Source of the DNA: a bacterium
GTDB lineage: Bacteria > UBP14 > UBA6098 > B30-G16
NCBI GenBank assembly: GCA_021159335.1
Contig: JAGGRZ010000080.1
Span: forward strand, 1-45,345
Reading direction: 5' to 3'
DNA length: 45,345 nt
The notes under the pieces are model-generated. The model was not told the DNA's origin, did no database searches, and was given only the letters and a program-made list of their open reading frames with translations. This document shows, piece after piece, positions 37,262 through 43,806 of the stretch. Every line of letters begins with the position of its first letter. Position 1 is the stretch's first letter. Made by a program: the position numbers and the translations under genes.

Positions 37262-38323
37262 TTACCTCGTGCTTAGCGAATCGAGAAAGGCTCTCGCATC
37301 CGGATTAAACGAAAGCATTATAAGCTCACAGTGCCTGAGGTATGGTTCCTTTCTGACCCCGGGAGCGAAAACGGCGCCGTCGAGAATGTATCTTCTCTTG
37401 TGTTCTATGTCGTCGAGAACATAGCCCACTACTGGACCACCGATGACTTTTTTCACATTTTTCCATCTCGCTCTGTATTTTATTCCAGGCAAGTTTCGGA
37501 AGTAAATTCTTCGATATGTTAGTTCTTCTTTCATAAGCGAATCGCCTTCGTAATAGATCTGGCATAAGGAGTCGCGGGTTCTGACAAGCCATGAAAGTGA
37601 TATTTTTTTGTATTGCGTTGAGTCCAGTGGCTCCCAATACACGAAAACCCACCTTTCGGGGTCGAGTGCTCTAAGCCACAGGAATCGCTCTTTTGGCGTG
37701 CCCTTTTCCCATTCGAACATTCTCGGAACGCGAATTCCGAAACCGTATTCTTCCGCTATTTTGCGCTCGAGGTCTTTTCGTTCGCCTTTGCCTTGGTATT
37801 TTCCAAAAAGCCATTTTGATACCTGCTCATTGCAGTAATTGTTTATCATCTCAAAAATAAGGTCCATATTGGTCAGTATGAAAGCTCGCAGCTCATCAGC
37901 ATTTCGCGCGGTAAGAATTATAAGTATCTGGTTTCTTGCCCATGGGTCCTTTTTGCGGAATACATTGAATTGCCCTTTTTTAACCCCTTCGTATGCTTTT
38001 TTATCGAGGTTCCTTCTCACGAATGCTCCCCACCATCCCGGGGATTTTATTGACGCAGCGATAAGCACTATATGATGCCGTGTCGCGTCGTCAAATGTGT
38101 TAGTGTCGCCCCATATTATTCTGAATAGTTTTTCTGGACGGGGGGTTTTTATTGGATGTTCAATGGCAAGCTCGAGAGGCTCTTTCAGTAAGTCAGCTTC
38201 CTGAGGGTCCACGAACGCGAATACAGCGTTGAAACTTCCTATAGCCTCAGGCTTGGGCTTTGCGCAACCCGCGATTACAGCTAAAATTGTGAGGATTATT
38301 AATAACTTTATCCTGGCTTTCAT
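37262..38323 (-). CDS. DUF4837-like lipoprotein
   Basis: This 353-residue protein has a lipoprotein signal peptide with lipobox IAGC (C20). The mature region includes FAFVDPQEAD at its start, TFDDATRHHIVLIAAS, and a C-terminal block, VIGGPVVGYVLDD and DGAVFAPGVRKEPYLRHCEL, that matches my memory of the DUF4837 family, which is common in Bacteroidetes and of unknown function. The start overlaps the kdsB stop by four bases (ATGA). It is the last gene of the minus-strand pil/kdsB cluster, which suggests an envelope role. Family call is by remembered motifs. Confidence 0.75.
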   Translation of the reverse strand: MKARIKLLIILTILAVIAGCAKPKPEAIGSFNAVFAFVDPQEADLLKEPLELAIEHPIKTPRPEKLFRIIWGDTNTFDDATRHHIVLIAASIKSPGWWGAFVRRNLDKKAYEGVKKGQFNVFRKKDPWARNQILIILTARNADELRAFILTNMDLIFEMINNYCNEQVSKWLFGKYQGKGERKDLERKIAEEYGFGIRVPRMFEWEKGTPKERFLWLRALDPERWVFVYWEPLDSTQYKKISLSWLVRTRDSLCQIYYEGDSLMKEELTYRRIYFRNLPGIKYRARWKNVKKVIGGPVVGYVLDDIEHKRRYILDGAVFAPGVRKEPYLRHCELIMLSFNPDARAFLDSLSTR

Positions 38324-39057
38324 TTCTCATCGTGCAGGAACTTTTTAACTAACTCTATGTCTTCTATGGTGTCAACGCTAATCAAATCCTTGGCTTCCGG
38401 GATGTCAAGGCAGAAAATTTTTATGCCATTCTCGACTGCGCGGAGTTGCTCGAGTTTTTCCGCCAATTCAAGAGGGGTAGGCTCAAGTTCCGCGAGTTTT
38501 AAGAGTGTTTCTCGCCTGTATCCGTATATTCCGATGTGCCTCCTCGGCGGAAAGTATTCAGTATTCTCGCTTGGTATGGGAGACCTGGAAAAGTAAAGGG
38601 CGAAACCCTTTATATCAGTCACAACTTTTACAACATTAGGGTTGTACCATTGTCTTTTTGTTCGGATGTGTGTTGTTATTGTTGCTATTTCGATTTGAGG
38701 ATTAGCCTCGAAAACCTCAACGAGCTGGTCTATGAATTCGCTTTTTATCATAGGTTCGTCACCCTGGATGTTGATGACTACATCGTAGAATGTAAGATTT
38801 TTAACGACTTCTGCCGTCCTTTCTGTGCCACTTTTGCATTTGGGCGATGTCATCATTACATCGATGCCATGTCGTTCGGCGACATCTGCTATCCTCTCAT
38901 CGTCGGTAGCAACGATAAGGTGGTCAAGTTTTCGTGCCTTTTTGGCGCCATCATAAGTCCACATAAAGAGGGGCTTTCCATTTATATCGGCGAGCATCTT
39001 TCCGGGAAAGCGTGTGGAACCATATCGGGCTGGAATGACTCCCAAGGCTCTTAACAT
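38320..39057 (-). CDS. kdsB: 3-deoxy-manno-octulosonate cytidylyltransferase (CMP-KDO synthetase)
   Basis: This 245-residue enzyme activates KDO with CTP for lipopolysaccharide inner-core synthesis. The signatures are GVIPARYGSTRFPGKML at the N-terminus, HLIVATDDERI, SGTERTAEV, INIQGDEPMI, and YFSRSPIP later. Length is normal. AGGAGGTTTT precedes the ATG. It lies 27 bases after pilQ and overlaps the DUF4837-like gene, so it is probably co-transcribed with the pilus genes. Its presence implies KDO-containing LPS and therefore an outer membrane. Confidence 0.97.
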   Translation of the reverse strand: MLRALGVIPARYGSTRFPGKMLADINGKPLFMWTYDGAKKARKLDHLIVATDDERIADVAERHGIDVMMTSPKCKSGTERTAEVVKNLTFYDVVINIQGDEPMIKSEFIDQLVEVFEANPQIEIATITTHIRTKRQWYNPNVVKVVTDIKGFALYFSRSPIPSENTEYFPPRRHIGIYGYRRETLLKLAELEPTPLELAEKLEQLRAVENGIKIFCLDIPEAKDLISVDTIEDIELVKKFLHDEK

Positions 39058-39084: not shown

Positions 39085-40326
39085 TTACGAAACTATTTCC
39101 GGGCGCAGGAATATTACTATTACATAAGGTCTTTTCTCAACGCTTTTAAACCTGAATAATGGACCTATAAGTGGTATGTCTTTGAGTATTGGCACACCTG
39201 ATTGCGTTTCCATTCTTTCCTCGCCGCTTAAACCACCAATAACGAGAATGTCACCCGATTCGATGGCTACGGTCGTTTTGGCGCTTCTTGTCGTTATTTC
39301 AACCTGTGCAGCGCCCGGGACGAATGCGCTTCGTTCGACATTGATGTTTAGTATTATGCTATCTCCGCCAGCTATTTGTGGGGTAACGGTGAGTTTCGTT
39401 GATGCAGTTATCATCTGATAGACGGTGTTGCCAGCTTGGTCGAGCATCGTTATCGCGCGCTGGACTGAGGAGTTTATTTCCGCTTGTATATTTTCCATAG
39501 TGACTACATGAGGTTCGTCGAGAATCCTCGATTTGTCCTCGGAGATCATCGCGGAAAGCTTTACATCAAAATTGAATTCGCCAGCTCTTATTATGCCCCA
39601 TGTGAAGTTGCCTATAGGGTCGGCGACACGATCTGTTGATATGCTTGCACTTATGGTAGCATCTTGTTTGGAAGCCATCCAGTTTATGCCGAACTCATTC
39701 AAGTACTTTTTGTCAACTTGTAATATCTGGCATGAAATCTTTATCTGTCTTCTCATCCTATCCAGCGAATCTATCATAGCAAGGATTGTGGGGAACTGTG
39801 ATGGGAGGTCATTTATGATGAGTGAATTTGAAGTAGGGTCGACAACTATATCGCCTCTTTCGGAAAGGGCTGTTTTAAGTGGTGTAGCGAGGTTTCTTGC
39901 GTCGACATTATGAATCCTTATCACCCTTGTTTCCGTTTGGATCTGCTCCCGTTCCTTTTTGACATTTTCAAGTTCGTCGAACTTTCGCTTCCAGTATTTG
40001 CTCGTGCTTAAAATATAGATGTAGCCAGTTTTCTGAATTGCTTTGAGGTCATACAGGTCGATTATCATATTGAAGACCTCAGCCCAGGTTACATTTTCAA
40101 GTTTAAGTGAGATTTTATTTTTAAGTTCCGGGTCAACGACTATGTTCACATTCGCCGTATCGGCAAGGAATGTGAAAACAGCGTGTATGTCAGCGTCCTT
40201 GAAAACTATGGAGGTAAATTTTATTCTCGTCGCGTTCGGGACTTTAACGCCACCAGCGAGTTTCTGTGCATGAATAGCTCCAAAGCAAATCCCAATTATT
40301 GTAACTGTTATTATCAATTTTTTCAT
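39085..40326 (-). CDS. pilQ: Type IV pilus secretin PilQ, short form without AMIN domain
   Basis: This 413-residue protein has a signal peptide, an STN-type domain at 37-108 (IVFKDADIHAVFTFLADTAN ... LENVTWAEVFNMII), a secretin N domain at 132-192 and the C-terminal secretin pore domain at about 195-412, including SRILDEPHVVTMEN, GDILVIGGL and VPILKDIPLIGPLFRF. It forms the outer-membrane channel for the pilus. It is much shorter than usual PilQ because no AMIN domain precedes the STN domain; that domain is found on the gene upstream. The complete pilMNOPQ order supports the assignment. Confidence 0.93.
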   Translation of the reverse strand: MKKLIITVTIIGICFGAIHAQKLAGGVKVPNATRIKFTSIVFKDADIHAVFTFLADTANVNIVVDPELKNKISLKLENVTWAEVFNMIIDLYDLKAIQKTGYIYILSTSKYWKRKFDELENVKKEREQIQTETRVIRIHNVDARNLATPLKTALSERGDIVVDPTSNSLIINDLPSQFPTILAMIDSLDRMRRQIKISCQILQVDKKYLNEFGINWMASKQDATISASISTDRVADPIGNFTWGIIRAGEFNFDVKLSAMISEDKSRILDEPHVVTMENIQAEINSSVQRAITMLDQAGNTVYQMITASTKLTVTPQIAGGDSIILNINVERSAFVPGAAQVEITTRSAKTTVAIESGDILVIGGLSGEERMETQSGVPILKDIPLIGPLFRFKSVEKRPYVIVIFLRPEIVS

Positions 40327-40345
40327 AGTCGCTCTCCTTTTATCG

Positions 40346-41341
40346 TTATTCGGCAGAAACTTTCTTCAGGGGAATCACGACTCTTCTTGCCTGACCGAAT
40401 TCAACAACCCTGAACACGGCGCTCGTGTCGTTTACCTCGATGCAATTCCCGTTTTCCACGGTATCACCGGGTGCGAGGATGTAGCTGTATCCCACCTGGT
40501 CTTGCATTATAGCCATATTCACATTGCCGGATTTTACGACACCCACGAGTGTTAGCTCCTCCACGAAGGGAATCGGTTCCTTCCCAAATTCTATTTTTCT
40601 ATGTCGTTCAGGCATGGCGAATGGATCCTTCTTTGGCGGCAAGAAAACCACGAGATTCCTAACATATCGCGCCAATGTTATCGTGTCTTTTTCCTCAGAG
40701 ACGGCCTCAAAAATTAATGTTTCAGGTTTCAAAAATTTCGCGATTTCAGGTTCGAGTTCACCTTCTGCAGCAAATAAAGATTCGACCGGTTGACTTACTG
40801 CGAGAAGGCTTTCCTTCGGCGCTTCCGCAGGTTTGGGCTTTGTGATTGTGGTTTCTTTGGCGGCTTTTTCGGGTTTTATCGGCGCTGGCGCAAGTCTGCC
40901 ACTGCTCCAGCCTGAAAATTCGGGATAGTGAGGCGTATGAAGCGATAATTTTACTCCAGTTGGGGTTATTTTAAGCCTGGCTGTGGTTACTACATCTGCA
41001 AGGTCGAAGACAATCCTCGTTATTGGGGTGGGTTTGGAAACATGCTGCGCAGCTCGTATAGATGTTATAATGCCAGCCGGGAGCAGTCTGTATTGCGATT
41101 TGGGCAAGTTAACAATGCCACCGAAAAGGTCAACCACGAGCCGAGGCGGATTCTCGATTATGAACTTTTTCGCGTCGGGTTTTGCGTTAGTCGTTATTTG
41201 AATGAATGTAGAATCACCTTTTGCTGAAAGGCGAATTTCATCCACGGTGTAGCGCTTTTGTTCCGGTTTTTGCGGTTGTTTCTGTGCACTGGATGTTGCC
41301 AGAAAGATTGCCAGCAATATGTAGAGCCACGCTTTTTTCAT
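40346..41341 (-). CDS. pilP: AMIN-PilP fusion protein of the pilus alignment complex
   Basis: This 331-residue exported protein occupies the pilP position. After a signal peptide, residues 32-137 form an AMIN domain (IRLSAKGDSTFIQITTNAKP, PRLVVDLFGG, ITRIVFDL), which normally sits at the N-terminus of PilQ and binds peptidoglycan. Residues 150-225 are a Pro/Lys/Glu linker. Residues 238-326 resemble PilP: KKDPF, then EELTLVGVVKSGNVNMAIMQ, YILAPGDTV and a beta-rich ending. There is no lipobox, whereas classical PilP is a lipoprotein. PilP links PilNO in the inner membrane to PilQ. Domain boundaries are estimated by eye. Confidence 0.75.
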   Translation of the reverse strand: MKKAWLYILLAIFLATSSAQKQPQKPEQKRYTVDEIRLSAKGDSTFIQITTNAKPDAKKFIIENPPRLVVDLFGGIVNLPKSQYRLLPAGIITSIRAAQHVSKPTPITRIVFDLADVVTTARLKITPTGVKLSLHTPHYPEFSGWSSGRLAPAPIKPEKAAKETTITKPKPAEAPKESLLAVSQPVESLFAAEGELEPEIAKFLKPETLIFEAVSEEKDTITLARYVRNLVVFLPPKKDPFAMPERHRKIEFGKEPIPFVEELTLVGVVKSGNVNMAIMQDQVGYSYILAPGDTVENGNCIEVNDTSAVFRVVEFGQARRVVIPLKKVSAE

Positions 41342-41343
41342 TT

Positions 41344-42021
41344 TTACGCAGGTGGTTTTGGTTTTGGTGGTGTAGGCGGTTTTGGCGTTGACCGCCTTGG
41401 TCGTCGTTTGCCTCGTTTTTGGGCTTTTTTAGTTACTTCTTCTATCCTGGTTATCCTTTGCTCCGCGGTCATGTGATGAGTATTAACTATCATTGTTACC
41501 TCTATCTGGTTTTCGCCTTGGCCGCTTCTGGTTATTTTTAGTTCATCTACAAGTGCTGTAAACGGCAGATTGGAAATTAAAGCCAGGAATTTTCCCAATC
41601 CCGCGAATGTTGTCTTTATTTGCAGCGCGTACGGGTCAACAATGTAATATGTTTGCGGAACAGACGGTCTTGGTTCAATTCTTATTATTGATACATCTGC
41701 CTGTTTTGCAGCGAGATAAATTTTGCTTATGAAGTTGGGTATATCTCTTTCAGCGGGCATTAATTCTTCTACGAGTTTGTATTGCGCGAAAAGTCTCTCC
41801 AGTTCCCATCGCAATTTGGCTTCGTTCGCGAGGGTCGCTTTTGCTCTTTGGAGCTTTGCCCTTAACTGCGTTAGTGTAGCCGTCTTTTCCTCTATGGTTT
41901 CCTGATTGGGTTTGTAAACCTGGGCATACCATATGTAAAGCACCATTACGCCTATGAAAAGTATAACGGCTATTTTTAGAAGCCCAGAAGCTTTTATTTC
42001 TATTTTACCAAAAGCTTTCAT
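41344..42021 (-). CDS. pilO: Type IV pilus assembly protein PilO
   Basis: This 225-residue inner-membrane protein has one transmembrane helix (about 13-33), a coiled coil (about 38-88) and a ferredoxin-like periplasmic domain with MPAERDIPNFISKIYLAAKQ and FAGLGKFLALISNLPFTALV, as in PilO. The C-terminus is a basic, Pro/Lys-rich tail (PPTPPKPKPPA). The ATG overlaps the pilN stop by four bases. It pairs with PilN to form the alignment platform. Confidence 0.88.
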   Translation of the reverse strand: MKAFGKIEIKASGLLKIAVILFIGVMVLYIWYAQVYKPNQETIEEKTATLTQLRAKLQRAKATLANEAKLRWELERLFAQYKLVEELMPAERDIPNFISKIYLAAKQADVSIIRIEPRPSVPQTYYIVDPYALQIKTTFAGLGKFLALISNLPFTALVDELKITRSGQGENQIEVTMIVNTHHMTAEQRITRIEEVTKKAQKRGKRRPRRSTPKPPTPPKPKPPA

Positions 42022-42722
42022 GGGTTTATTCCCGAAAACATTATTTTGGCTTCTTCCTTCGAGTAAAGTCCAAGCTTCTTCCGCGTCGATGTTATGAATC
42101 CGCCTACAATGCGTTTCTTTTTGTTGGTGGATGTCGTGTCGATTTCGAATTTCCCGAGTTTGAGAGTATCATAGGCGCCCGCCACGGACATGGTTATGGT
42201 AAACGAGTATACATCGCCTTCTTTCCCGTGCTGCATGGTTATTGCACCTATATTTATGTTCTCGAACAGTTTTGACTCTATGAGGTTTGCGAGGAACATG
42301 GCTATAGATTTAAGATTGTAGCTTTTTCCTGAACTTTCGAGTTGTTTGTTGCCTTTGTCTATCAAATCTATTACCCACAGATAATCGGGAACCAATTCAG
42401 AAAAGTCAGACAGCAGCCTTACCCAATATGCGCGCTTGTTGTCGAGTTGCTGAATTGCCGTTAGTCTCTTTTTGAGTTCGCCTTTTATTTTGTCTATTTG
42501 TTTGAGGATTGCGAGTTTTGGTTCGTACTTTTTTAGTTCTGTCTGCACGAATGCTATTTCACCTTCCAGCTCGTTTATTCGGCTTTGTTGCGATAAAGAG
42601 ATAATGTAAAGCAGCATGATCTCCCCTACTATGAGCAGAGCACCGTAAATAACGGTTCTATCTATAAGTCTTGCTTTCTTTTTCTTTTTTAATTCAGGCG
42701 GAAGTAAATTTATTTTAAACAT
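42018..42722 (-). CDS. pilN: Type IV pilus assembly protein PilN
   Basis: This 234-residue protein starts with the conserved cytoplasmic PilM-binding peptide MFKINLLPPELK, then a transmembrane segment (about 22-44), coiled coil, and a periplasmic domain. The INLLP motif is diagnostic. A good ribosome site (GAGGAGGGG) lies within the pilM end. There is one base between the pilM stop and the pilN start. Partner of PilO and PilM. Confidence 0.9.
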   Translation of the reverse strand: MFKINLLPPELKKKKKARLIDRTVIYGALLIVGEIMLLYIISLSQQSRINELEGEIAFVQTELKKYEPKLAILKQIDKIKGELKKRLTAIQQLDNKRAYWVRLLSDFSELVPDYLWVIDLIDKGNKQLESSGKSYNLKSIAMFLANLIESKLFENINIGAITMQHGKEGDVYSFTITMSVAGAYDTLKLGKFEIDTTSTNKKKRIVGGFITSTRKKLGLYSKEEAKIMFSGINP

Positions 42723-42723
42723 G

Positions 42724-43806
42724 CTATGCTTCCCCTCCTCTTATCGCCAGTCCCAGAGCCACCGCATAGGTAGCTCTTCGCTCGACCGTTGACAGGTCTT
42801 CGTGTGCTTCGGGTTCGTATGATATCTTTTTCAGTGGGTCAATTATTTCGCACGGGATACCCAGTCTTGATGCTAACGACTCAGCGAGGAACGGTATCAT
42901 AACAGCTCCGCCGCTTATGAAAAGTCTGTCGATGCTTCCGCCTCCTGGTGCGTTCTCAATGTATGAGAATGCCATTCCTAAACCAGCGCTCAGTTCTTCT
43001 ATAGAATTGTATATTGCCTTTTTTGTCGTTGGCGAGTTTTCCGGAACAGCTTCAGATTTCATGTATCGCTTGAGTTCATCAGTGGATATCCTGAGCTCGC
43101 TCTGGAATCTGCCCCACACATTTTTTGCGGCAGTGCCTATGTCTCTTATGCTGAAAAGATTGCCGCCGATTATAAACACGACATTCGTTACATTGTGTCC
43201 GATATCTGCTATAGCTATGTTAGTTTGGGGTCCTATTTCATAGTTGTATTCAAAAATATTATACGCAGCGATGGCTTCGAGGTCAACTATTGTGGGTATT
43301 AACCCAGCCTCCACTACAACGCCAACATAGTCGTCGACTATGTCATTGCGGGCAGCTACGAGTAAGACCGAAACATTCTTCCCATCCGAGCCGAGCTCAA
43401 CGAAATCGAGCTGAACACTGTCTATTCCCGTTGGGATTCTTTGCTCAGCCTCCAGCGTTATAGCCTGTTTCAGGAGAACATCCCTTTTACCTTTGCCAGT
43501 TGGTTCAGGTATTACGAGTCTGTCAACCAGAATTTTTCTTCCAGCCACTGCTATGCATACCTCGCTTAGTTTTGGGTCGACCTCGTCAACGAAAGACTGT
43601 ATCGCGTAAACGATGCCCTCGTGGTCTCTTATTTCTTTGTCGACTATCTGTCCGGGAGTTAGCAGTTTTTTACGAATGTTTTTCAGCGTTAGATTACCCA
43701 TTTTATCGGACTCGAGGATAGCAAGCTTAAGAGAGAATGTACCTATGTCGAGTCCTGCAAGCTTTTTCGTTCGCTTGCCCAGACCCAGTTTTATTTTCTT
43801 TCCCAT
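42724..43806 (-). CDS. pilM: Type IV pilus assembly ATPase-like protein PilM
   Basis: This 360-residue actin-like protein has phosphate-1 motif LAGLDIGTFSLKLAILES, the PilM-type segments TPGQIVDKEI and LLKQAITLEAEQRIP, an IADIGHNVTNVVFI phosphate-2 motif and IDRLFISGGAVMIPFLAESL in the adenosine part. PilM binds the N-terminus of PilN on the cytoplasmic side. It is the first gene of the cluster, with a promoter-like element at 43832-43860. The N-terminus carries a basic extension (KKIKLGLGKRTKK). No clear Shine-Dalgarno site is seen. Confidence 0.92.
   Translation of the reverse strand: MGKKIKLGLGKRTKKLAGLDIGTFSLKLAILESDKMGNLTLKNIRKKLLTPGQIVDKEIRDHEGIVYAIQSFVDEVDPKLSEVCIAVAGRKILVDRLVIPEPTGKGKRDVLLKQAITLEAEQRIPTGIDSVQLDFVELGSDGKNVSVLLVAARNDIVDDYVGVVVEAGLIPTIVDLEAIAAYNIFEYNYEIGPQTNIAIADIGHNVTNVVFIIGGNLFSIRDIGTAAKNVWGRFQSELRISTDELKRYMKSEAVPENSPTTKKAIYNSIEELSAGLGMAFSYIENAPGGGSIDRLFISGGAVMIPFLAESLASRLGIPCEIIDPLKKISYEPEAHEDLSTVERRATYAVALGLAIRGGEA

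Follow-up and report, generated by a model that had tools for sequence, protein, structure and literature searches.

In the window, by which we mean the whole 45,345-nucleotide stretch of DNA analysed here, the AMIN domain of a type IV pilus locus is carried by the protein encoded directly before the PilQ-like secretin and not by the secretin, and the C-terminal part of that protein is, on the strength of profile alignments and a predicted fold, a PilP homology-region (HR) beta-sandwich domain. AMIN on PilP is apparently a new arrangement of the type IVa pilus machine: no description of it was found in the open-access literature, including the available text of PMC11870540, PMC6668835 and PMC3724824, which is no proof of absence; AMIN-less PilQ was already known. 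The AMIN-PilP arrangement recurs across four phylum-level groups, and inside one of them both arrangements occur.

The genes are packed on the minus strand, no gap being longer than 19 bases, and form one apparent operon, running from pilM (42724..43806; Pfam PilM_2, E = 2.5e-44; NCBIfam TIGR01175 above cut-off) through pilN (42018..42722; Pfam PilN, 2e-10) and pilO (41344..42021; Pfam PilO, 9.8e-19) to the gene of the 331-residue AMIN-PilP protein (40346..41341; assigned from the open reading frame, Pfam AMIN, and profile and fold matches of the HR part) and that of the 413-residue secretin (39085..40326). The AMIN-PilP gene thus occupies the place between pilO and the secretin gene that is expected of pilP. 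The C-terminal tail of PilO is rich in Lys/Arg and Pro (window 41344-41418: KRGKRRPRRSTPKPPTPPKPKPPA). The open reading frame beyond the secretin gene (window 38320-39057) encodes what we take, by eye and from a motif, to be a CMP-KDO synthetase, which, if true, would suit an outer membrane with LPS.

The AMIN-PilP protein starts with MKKAWLYILLAIFLATSSAQ (41282..41341, minus strand), by eye a signal peptide of the signal-peptidase-I type, and a lipobox scan found no lipobox in it. The AMIN domain (Pfam PF11741, E = 4.8e-10) follows at residues 35-126 (40961..41236 on the minus strand, or 40958-41236 in the genome search), scores 39.9 bits against a Pfam cut-off of 20.5, and is the sole Pfam family listed for this protein; all Pfam residue numbers given here refer to the sequence without the start Met, and 1 is to be added to them. 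R95, Q98 and R108, which do not vary within the class, align with the same residues of the AmiC AMIN domain in a 14-member profile alignment. A linker of about 100 residues, delimited by its sequence and by low pLDDT (40655..40960, minus strand), is rich in Pro, Lys and Glu chiefly in its first half. The preliminary description of this DNA had proposed an AMIN domain joined by a Pro-rich linker to a PilP-like domain in a protein lacking the usual lipobox; the order of parts is upheld by the Pfam call and by the profile and structure matches set out below, with a linker that is Pro-rich in part, and the lipobox is missing from all 49 AMIN-PilPs considered, the window protein among them.

The identity of the C-terminal part depends on the more sensitive comparisons. 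The domain search suggested as a check gave a mixed outcome on the 331-residue protein, with Pfam finding AMIN and no PilP model of Pfam or NCBIfam making a call, and a single-sequence PDB search returned one weak, irrelevant match; the sensitive tests then support PilP. One of them used a class profile of 14 aligned proteins of the same class as the window protein, among which Pfam (E up to 1) finds AMIN in 14 of 14 and PilP, weakly, in 3 of 14. Searched against the PDB (E up to 10), the 14-member profile matched five sequences, namely the AMIN part of Myxococcus xanthus PilQ (1.5e-10) and AmiC (0.0011) on the AMIN side and PilP entries at 0.0084, 0.045 and 0.11. With hhalign, the HR part of the window protein and five relatives aligned to two PilPs that pass the Pfam cut-off (L087 and L089) with a probability of 96.8 and an E value of 2.4e-10. 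The full-length structure model was too poor to search (pLDDT 46.9), and the HR part was therefore modelled alone with AlphaFold (40349..40678 on the minus strand, with a confident core at about 40355-40582), which gave a mean pLDDT of 67 and about 80 in the core. The 11 best Foldseek matches of this model are all HR domains of PilP or GspC, the first at 7.9e-4 and the others at 0.0024 to 0.042, so that just the first lies below 0.001. In VIA comparisons the model reached a Z of 11.4 to M. xanthus PilP and of 5.7 to GspB (4wfw), the latter too low to count alone; VIA rows ranked under the PilP, GspC and GspB set were left out of use. Two distant relatives from one genus, L060 and L061, carry AMIN and PilP in one protein with both above the Pfam cut-offs, the PilP scores being 30.4 and 25.8 bits, respectively, against 25.6. 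The Pfam PilP search of the window's own genome carries no information, its controls being without a match. By analogy with known pairs, the HR domain would bind N0 of the neighboring secretin.

That secretin is led by an N0/STN domain (Pfam PF21305, GspD_N0, and PF07660, STN; residues 41-107; 40003..40203), the expected HR docking site, followed by Secretin_N (PF03958; residues 132-193; 39745..39930) and Secretin (PF00263; residues 258-411; 39091..39552), all on the minus strand. No AMIN is among the Pfam families listed up to E = 10, as had been read from the sequence at the outset, when a 413-residue secretin beginning with STN was described. Its best NCBIfam model is PilQ TIGR02515 at 223.1 bits, under the cut-off of 284.35, with GspD likewise under its cut-off at 203 bits, and we call the protein PilQ-like from its N0, Secretin_N and Secretin domains in the gene after pilMNOP. 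Scores of 223 and 203 bits, below both cut-offs, would also be compatible with a secretin and an AMIN-PilP that are not partners, the secretin belonging, e.g., to a type II secretion system; this we find hardly credible, given that (i) the secretin gene directly follows pilMNO and AMIN-PilP in the same apparent operon, (ii) the Secretin profile gave one match in the window's own genome and no second secretin was found there, and (iii) pilP and secretin genes are adjacent in every locus counted in the survey described below. The NCBIfam models of Escherichia coli HofQ, at 412-419 positions, are close in length to the window secretin. To our knowledge, HofQ is also without AMIN. Secretins without AMIN are represented in the available parts of two published surveys: one counts no AMIN in 27 type IVa pilus secretins, one in 19, two in 141 and three in 10 (PMC7545093), and the other lists the PilQs of Synechocystis, Moraxella catarrhalis and Burkholderia cepacia as AMIN-less, like that of the window (PMC10653833). 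The contrast first drawn with standard systems therefore holds for AMIN on PilP, which is unusual, and falls away for the AMIN-less PilQ, which by itself is not.

Among relatives, matches to the class profile were found in 153 of 386 genomes. Within the window's class, 14 of the 16 other genomes had a match, the remaining two being 74% and 80% complete, and a wider profile matched 4 of 4 genomes in the phylum of genome G152, 92 of 98 in that of G172 and 50 of 60 in that of G141. Since a genome-level match may reflect one domain alone, loci were inspected one by one, 105 in all (5 from named genomes and 100 others, the window's own included). Both genes were present in 98, pilP alone in 6 and, by the thresholds used, neither in 1 (L099); the 98 two-gene loci represent 97 distinct ones, with L094 repeating L029, and L093 is the window. 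Of the 98, 50 carry AMIN on PilP, 30 on the secretin, 18 on neither and 0 on both, so that 80 loci have AMIN on exactly one of the two proteins; the loci were chosen through profile matches and the profiles iterated on the same loci, and these counts are accordingly not population frequencies. AMIN is on PilP in 10 of 10 two-gene loci of the window's class, in 4 of 4 of the phylum of G152 and in 23 of 24 of the phylum of G172 (24 loci inspected, 98 genomes searched), where the remaining locus begins inside pilP at a contig end. The phylum of G141 is divided, with AMIN on PilP in 13 loci and on the secretin in 22, plus 3 pilP-only loci (38 loci, 60 genomes searched), and in the other groups AMIN is on the secretin in 8 and on neither in 17. 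The five confirmed loci of the named genomes (MAGs CSMAG_2407, AUK196, 4559-240, Zixiibacteriota SpSt-1142 and UBP14_UBA6098) all have AMIN-PilP followed by a short secretin. UBP14_UBA6098 and G010, a genome of the window's class, encode identical secretins, which assigns the window to the class of UBA6098; no paper on type IV pili and a secretin in Zixibacteria was found in the open-access literature.

Pfam gave the same division when applied to subsets of these proteins. It called AMIN in 0 of 10 scanned secretins that partner an AMIN-PilP, the window's included (E limits 10, 1 or 0.1), and above cut-off in all 3 of the classical-locus secretins scanned; the secretin of L070 was counted as AMIN-bearing by our own profile and has no Pfam call. 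Two scans of AMIN-PilPs found Pfam AMIN above cut-off in 4 of 5 and 9 of 10, and in L063 and L185 AMIN rests on our own profile. AMIN is not obligatory, as neither protein carries a detected AMIN in 18 of the 98 loci, among them L092, which is cut by a contig end. The gene in question of genome G311 (L092) is seemingly split over two contigs. AMIN-HR linkers vary from fewer than 100 to more than 400 residues in the phylum of G172 (L062, L063, L131-L150 and L186). At two further loci (L098:4539-5540 in G133 and L099:233-1072 in G270) AMIN occurs in a frame of its own, which overlaps a weakly pilP-like frame and is without a secretin domain, possibly a stand-alone AMIN subunit; Pfam made no AMIN call in the L098 frame.

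The lipobox was assessed with a regular expression applied beside the most hydrophobic N-terminal stretch, a strict test. It recognised a lipobox in 0 of 49 AMIN-PilPs (L094 omitted as a repeat), in 16 of the 30 PilPs whose partner secretin carries AMIN, where the other 14 of 30 result partly from the strictness of a pattern that misses several likely lipoproteins in this set, and in 5 of 18 PilPs from loci where neither protein has AMIN; the species are related, and hence no p-value is attached. As tested, the lipobox is not a universal PilP trait. Its absence from 49 of 49 AMIN-PilPs is also what would be seen if AMIN stood in for a lipid anchor that PilP has lost, keeping PilP close to the inner membrane complex, and were unrelated to the secretin. 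Such a replacement leaves unexplained both the AMIN-less partner secretin in every such locus and the 12 of 17 assessable no-AMIN loci that are likewise without a recognised lipobox (the 18th is without an N-terminus), and we consider it very improbable.

Other modules are found on PilP-like proteins. The clade of AMIN-less secretins around that of the window includes six rows without a detected AMIN, namely L067, L074, L076, L079, L091 and the contig-cut L092. At L067:5096-5986, in the single genome of its phylum in the dataset (G073), the PilP-like protein carries SPOR (9.6e-15) at its C-terminal end and adjoins an AMIN-less secretin. SH3_3 matches weakly, in each case under the Pfam cut-off, in the PilPs of L074 (0.0032), L076 (0.098) and L091 (0.0015), which also have a weak AMIN-like segment (hhalign 51) that was not counted as AMIN; the extra C-terminal part of the L079 PilP matched no known peptidoglycan-binding or other family. 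A 608-residue PilP-like protein at L071:3006-4829 (G115) carries two SH3_3 domains (9.7e-24) and an N-terminal segment that is weakly AMIN-like (hhalign 62) and likewise not counted, with no secretin in the 5-kb stretch, which reaches the contig end. At L088:4123-5055 (G136), PilO (2.6e-7) and a weak PilP (0.013) share one 311-residue frame.

The statement that AMIN had moved from PilQ is not borne out by the phylogenies, which fix neither the direction nor the number of events. In the secretin tree (a quick LG+G4 search on 95 rows, which gave long-branch warnings) the AMIN-PilP loci fall in two clades. One unites the window's class and the phyla of G152 and G172; the other is made up of 13 loci from the phylum of G141. 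This second clade is separate from the 21 rows of that phylum whose secretin carries AMIN: 20 of these are grouped in a single clade along with two rows from other groups, and L190, on a long branch, is placed elsewhere. Forcing all AMIN-PilP rows into a single clade costs 13.2 log units with a p-AU of 0.0497, a borderline rejection that is flattering because the group was defined after a tree had been seen; this test used 51 of the 95 rows, with 11 long-branch or AMIN-undetected rows dropped and 33 thinned. The AMIN and HR alignments behind the other two trees are short, the AMIN tree is poorly resolved, and they do not force two events. With the p-AU of 0.0497 set against an unforcing AMIN tree, we adopted neither a one-origin nor a two-origin history. 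Moving the border between pilP and pilQ cannot by itself explain the placement, since AMIN is N-terminal on PilP.

We think it likely that the locus is a pilMNOPQ operon encoding a probably retractable type IVa pilus, whose secretin is connected to peptidoglycan in trans through AMIN-PilP. The genome of the window (given as 98% complete) has one AMIN match, the one on PilP, and a profile search found no second. It encodes four T2SSE-family ATPases above cut-off, in frames of 570, 785, 401 and 374 residues, and a fifth below; by size alone, two of the four are labelled PilB-like and two PilT-like. LysM occurs solely in one 714-residue frame with five LysM domains (G000:C22:14646-15512).

In the reading that we prefer, AMIN-PilP would be exported as a soluble periplasmic protein, with the flexible linker rather than a lipid serving as the tether; its AMIN domain, by analogy with those of PilQ and AmiC, would bind peptidoglycan, and its HR domain would dock on the N0 domain of the short secretin. 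Were HR docked in this way, an AMIN domain tied to HR would land where one tied to N0 would be, and the wall anchor would lie beside N0, its position in the classical machine, but through a docking contact and not a covalent link; in other words, the HR-N0 joint would be retained and the covalent link swapped. PilMNOP could then locate the wall or septum on its own and recruit the secretin afterwards. The early proposal that the alignment complex would provide the contact with peptidoglycan is well supported as an inference, with AMIN on PilP and none on the secretin. According to the available text on Pseudomonas aeruginosa (PMC5285504), AMIN-containing fragments of PilQ bind peptidoglycan, and PilO localisation needs the AMIN domains of PilQ, acting via PilP HR on PilQ N0; the dependency there is that PilQ AMIN domains recruit PilMNOP, and the order proposed here, in which the alignment complex recruits the secretin, is its reverse. 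A related link is described in the accessible part of a study of the type II secretion system, where GspB/OutB, an HR-fold protein, connects the secretin to peptidoglycan (PMC9239104).

AMIN domains may act in targeting or protein contacts and not in bearing load. AMIN on PilP could be a tag for septum or pole targeting at assembly that takes no mechanical load, the anchoring coming from other parts. Deletion of AMIN from PilQ abolishes polar recruitment both in P. aeruginosa and in M. xanthus, where such recruitment needs these domains (PMC5285504 and PMC10653833, as far as the available sections go), and species with an AMIN-less secretin are still piliated, in a peritrichous pattern (PMC10653833, available text). 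Against this stands the lack of a visible TsaP-like second anchor, LysM being confined to the 714-residue frame, a weak argument in that LysM was the one further wall-binding family searched. We regard a pure targeting role as unlikely and retain peptidoglycan binding in trans as the preferred reading.

Compared with the type IVa pili of P. aeruginosa and M. xanthus, the locus shares the pilM-N-O-P-Q order, the HR domain of PilP, the N0/Secretin_N/Secretin architecture and the presence of AMIN in the machine. It differs in that two AMIN domains lead PilQ in P. aeruginosa and three in M. xanthus (PMC10653833, available text), whereas here there is one, on PilP, and in that PilP is an inner-membrane lipoprotein in P. 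aeruginosa (PMC5285504, in the sections available) and without a lipobox here. GspB/OutB of Dickeya resembles AMIN-PilP as an HR-fold protein that contacts both secretin and peptidoglycan; unlike it, GspB/OutB belongs to a T2SS and is attached to the inner membrane, and the available portion of that report mentions no AMIN (PMC9239104). AMIN is also found on a part of an envelope machine in some lineages as AMIN-FliO and AMIN-PflA (PMC12403147, available text), there in another machine and with another partner domain. The published surveys, in their available parts, considered AMIN on the secretin and not on PilP (PMC10653833, PMC7545093).

To conclude, AMIN on PilP, seen here in an uncultured bacterium and in numerous relatives, suggests a different anchoring and assembly of a common bacterial machine. 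As a more tentative generalization, which we hold to be plausible rather than probable, the wall-binding module may be swappable across the HR-N0 joint, with whole phyla having a PilP-borne module, a PilP slot that takes AMIN, SPOR or SH3-like domains, and assembly that begins from a wall-bound alignment complex, by which a bare secretin is recruited, the opposite of a secretin-first order. If AMIN can be placed on PilP, an AMIN-less secretin is no sign of an AMIN-less machine, and the published correlations between secretin AMIN domains and polar piliation would need PilP to be added. The loci also offer a natural swap, inside one phylum-level group too, with which assembly from the secretin inwards and assembly from the alignment complex outwards could be told apart.
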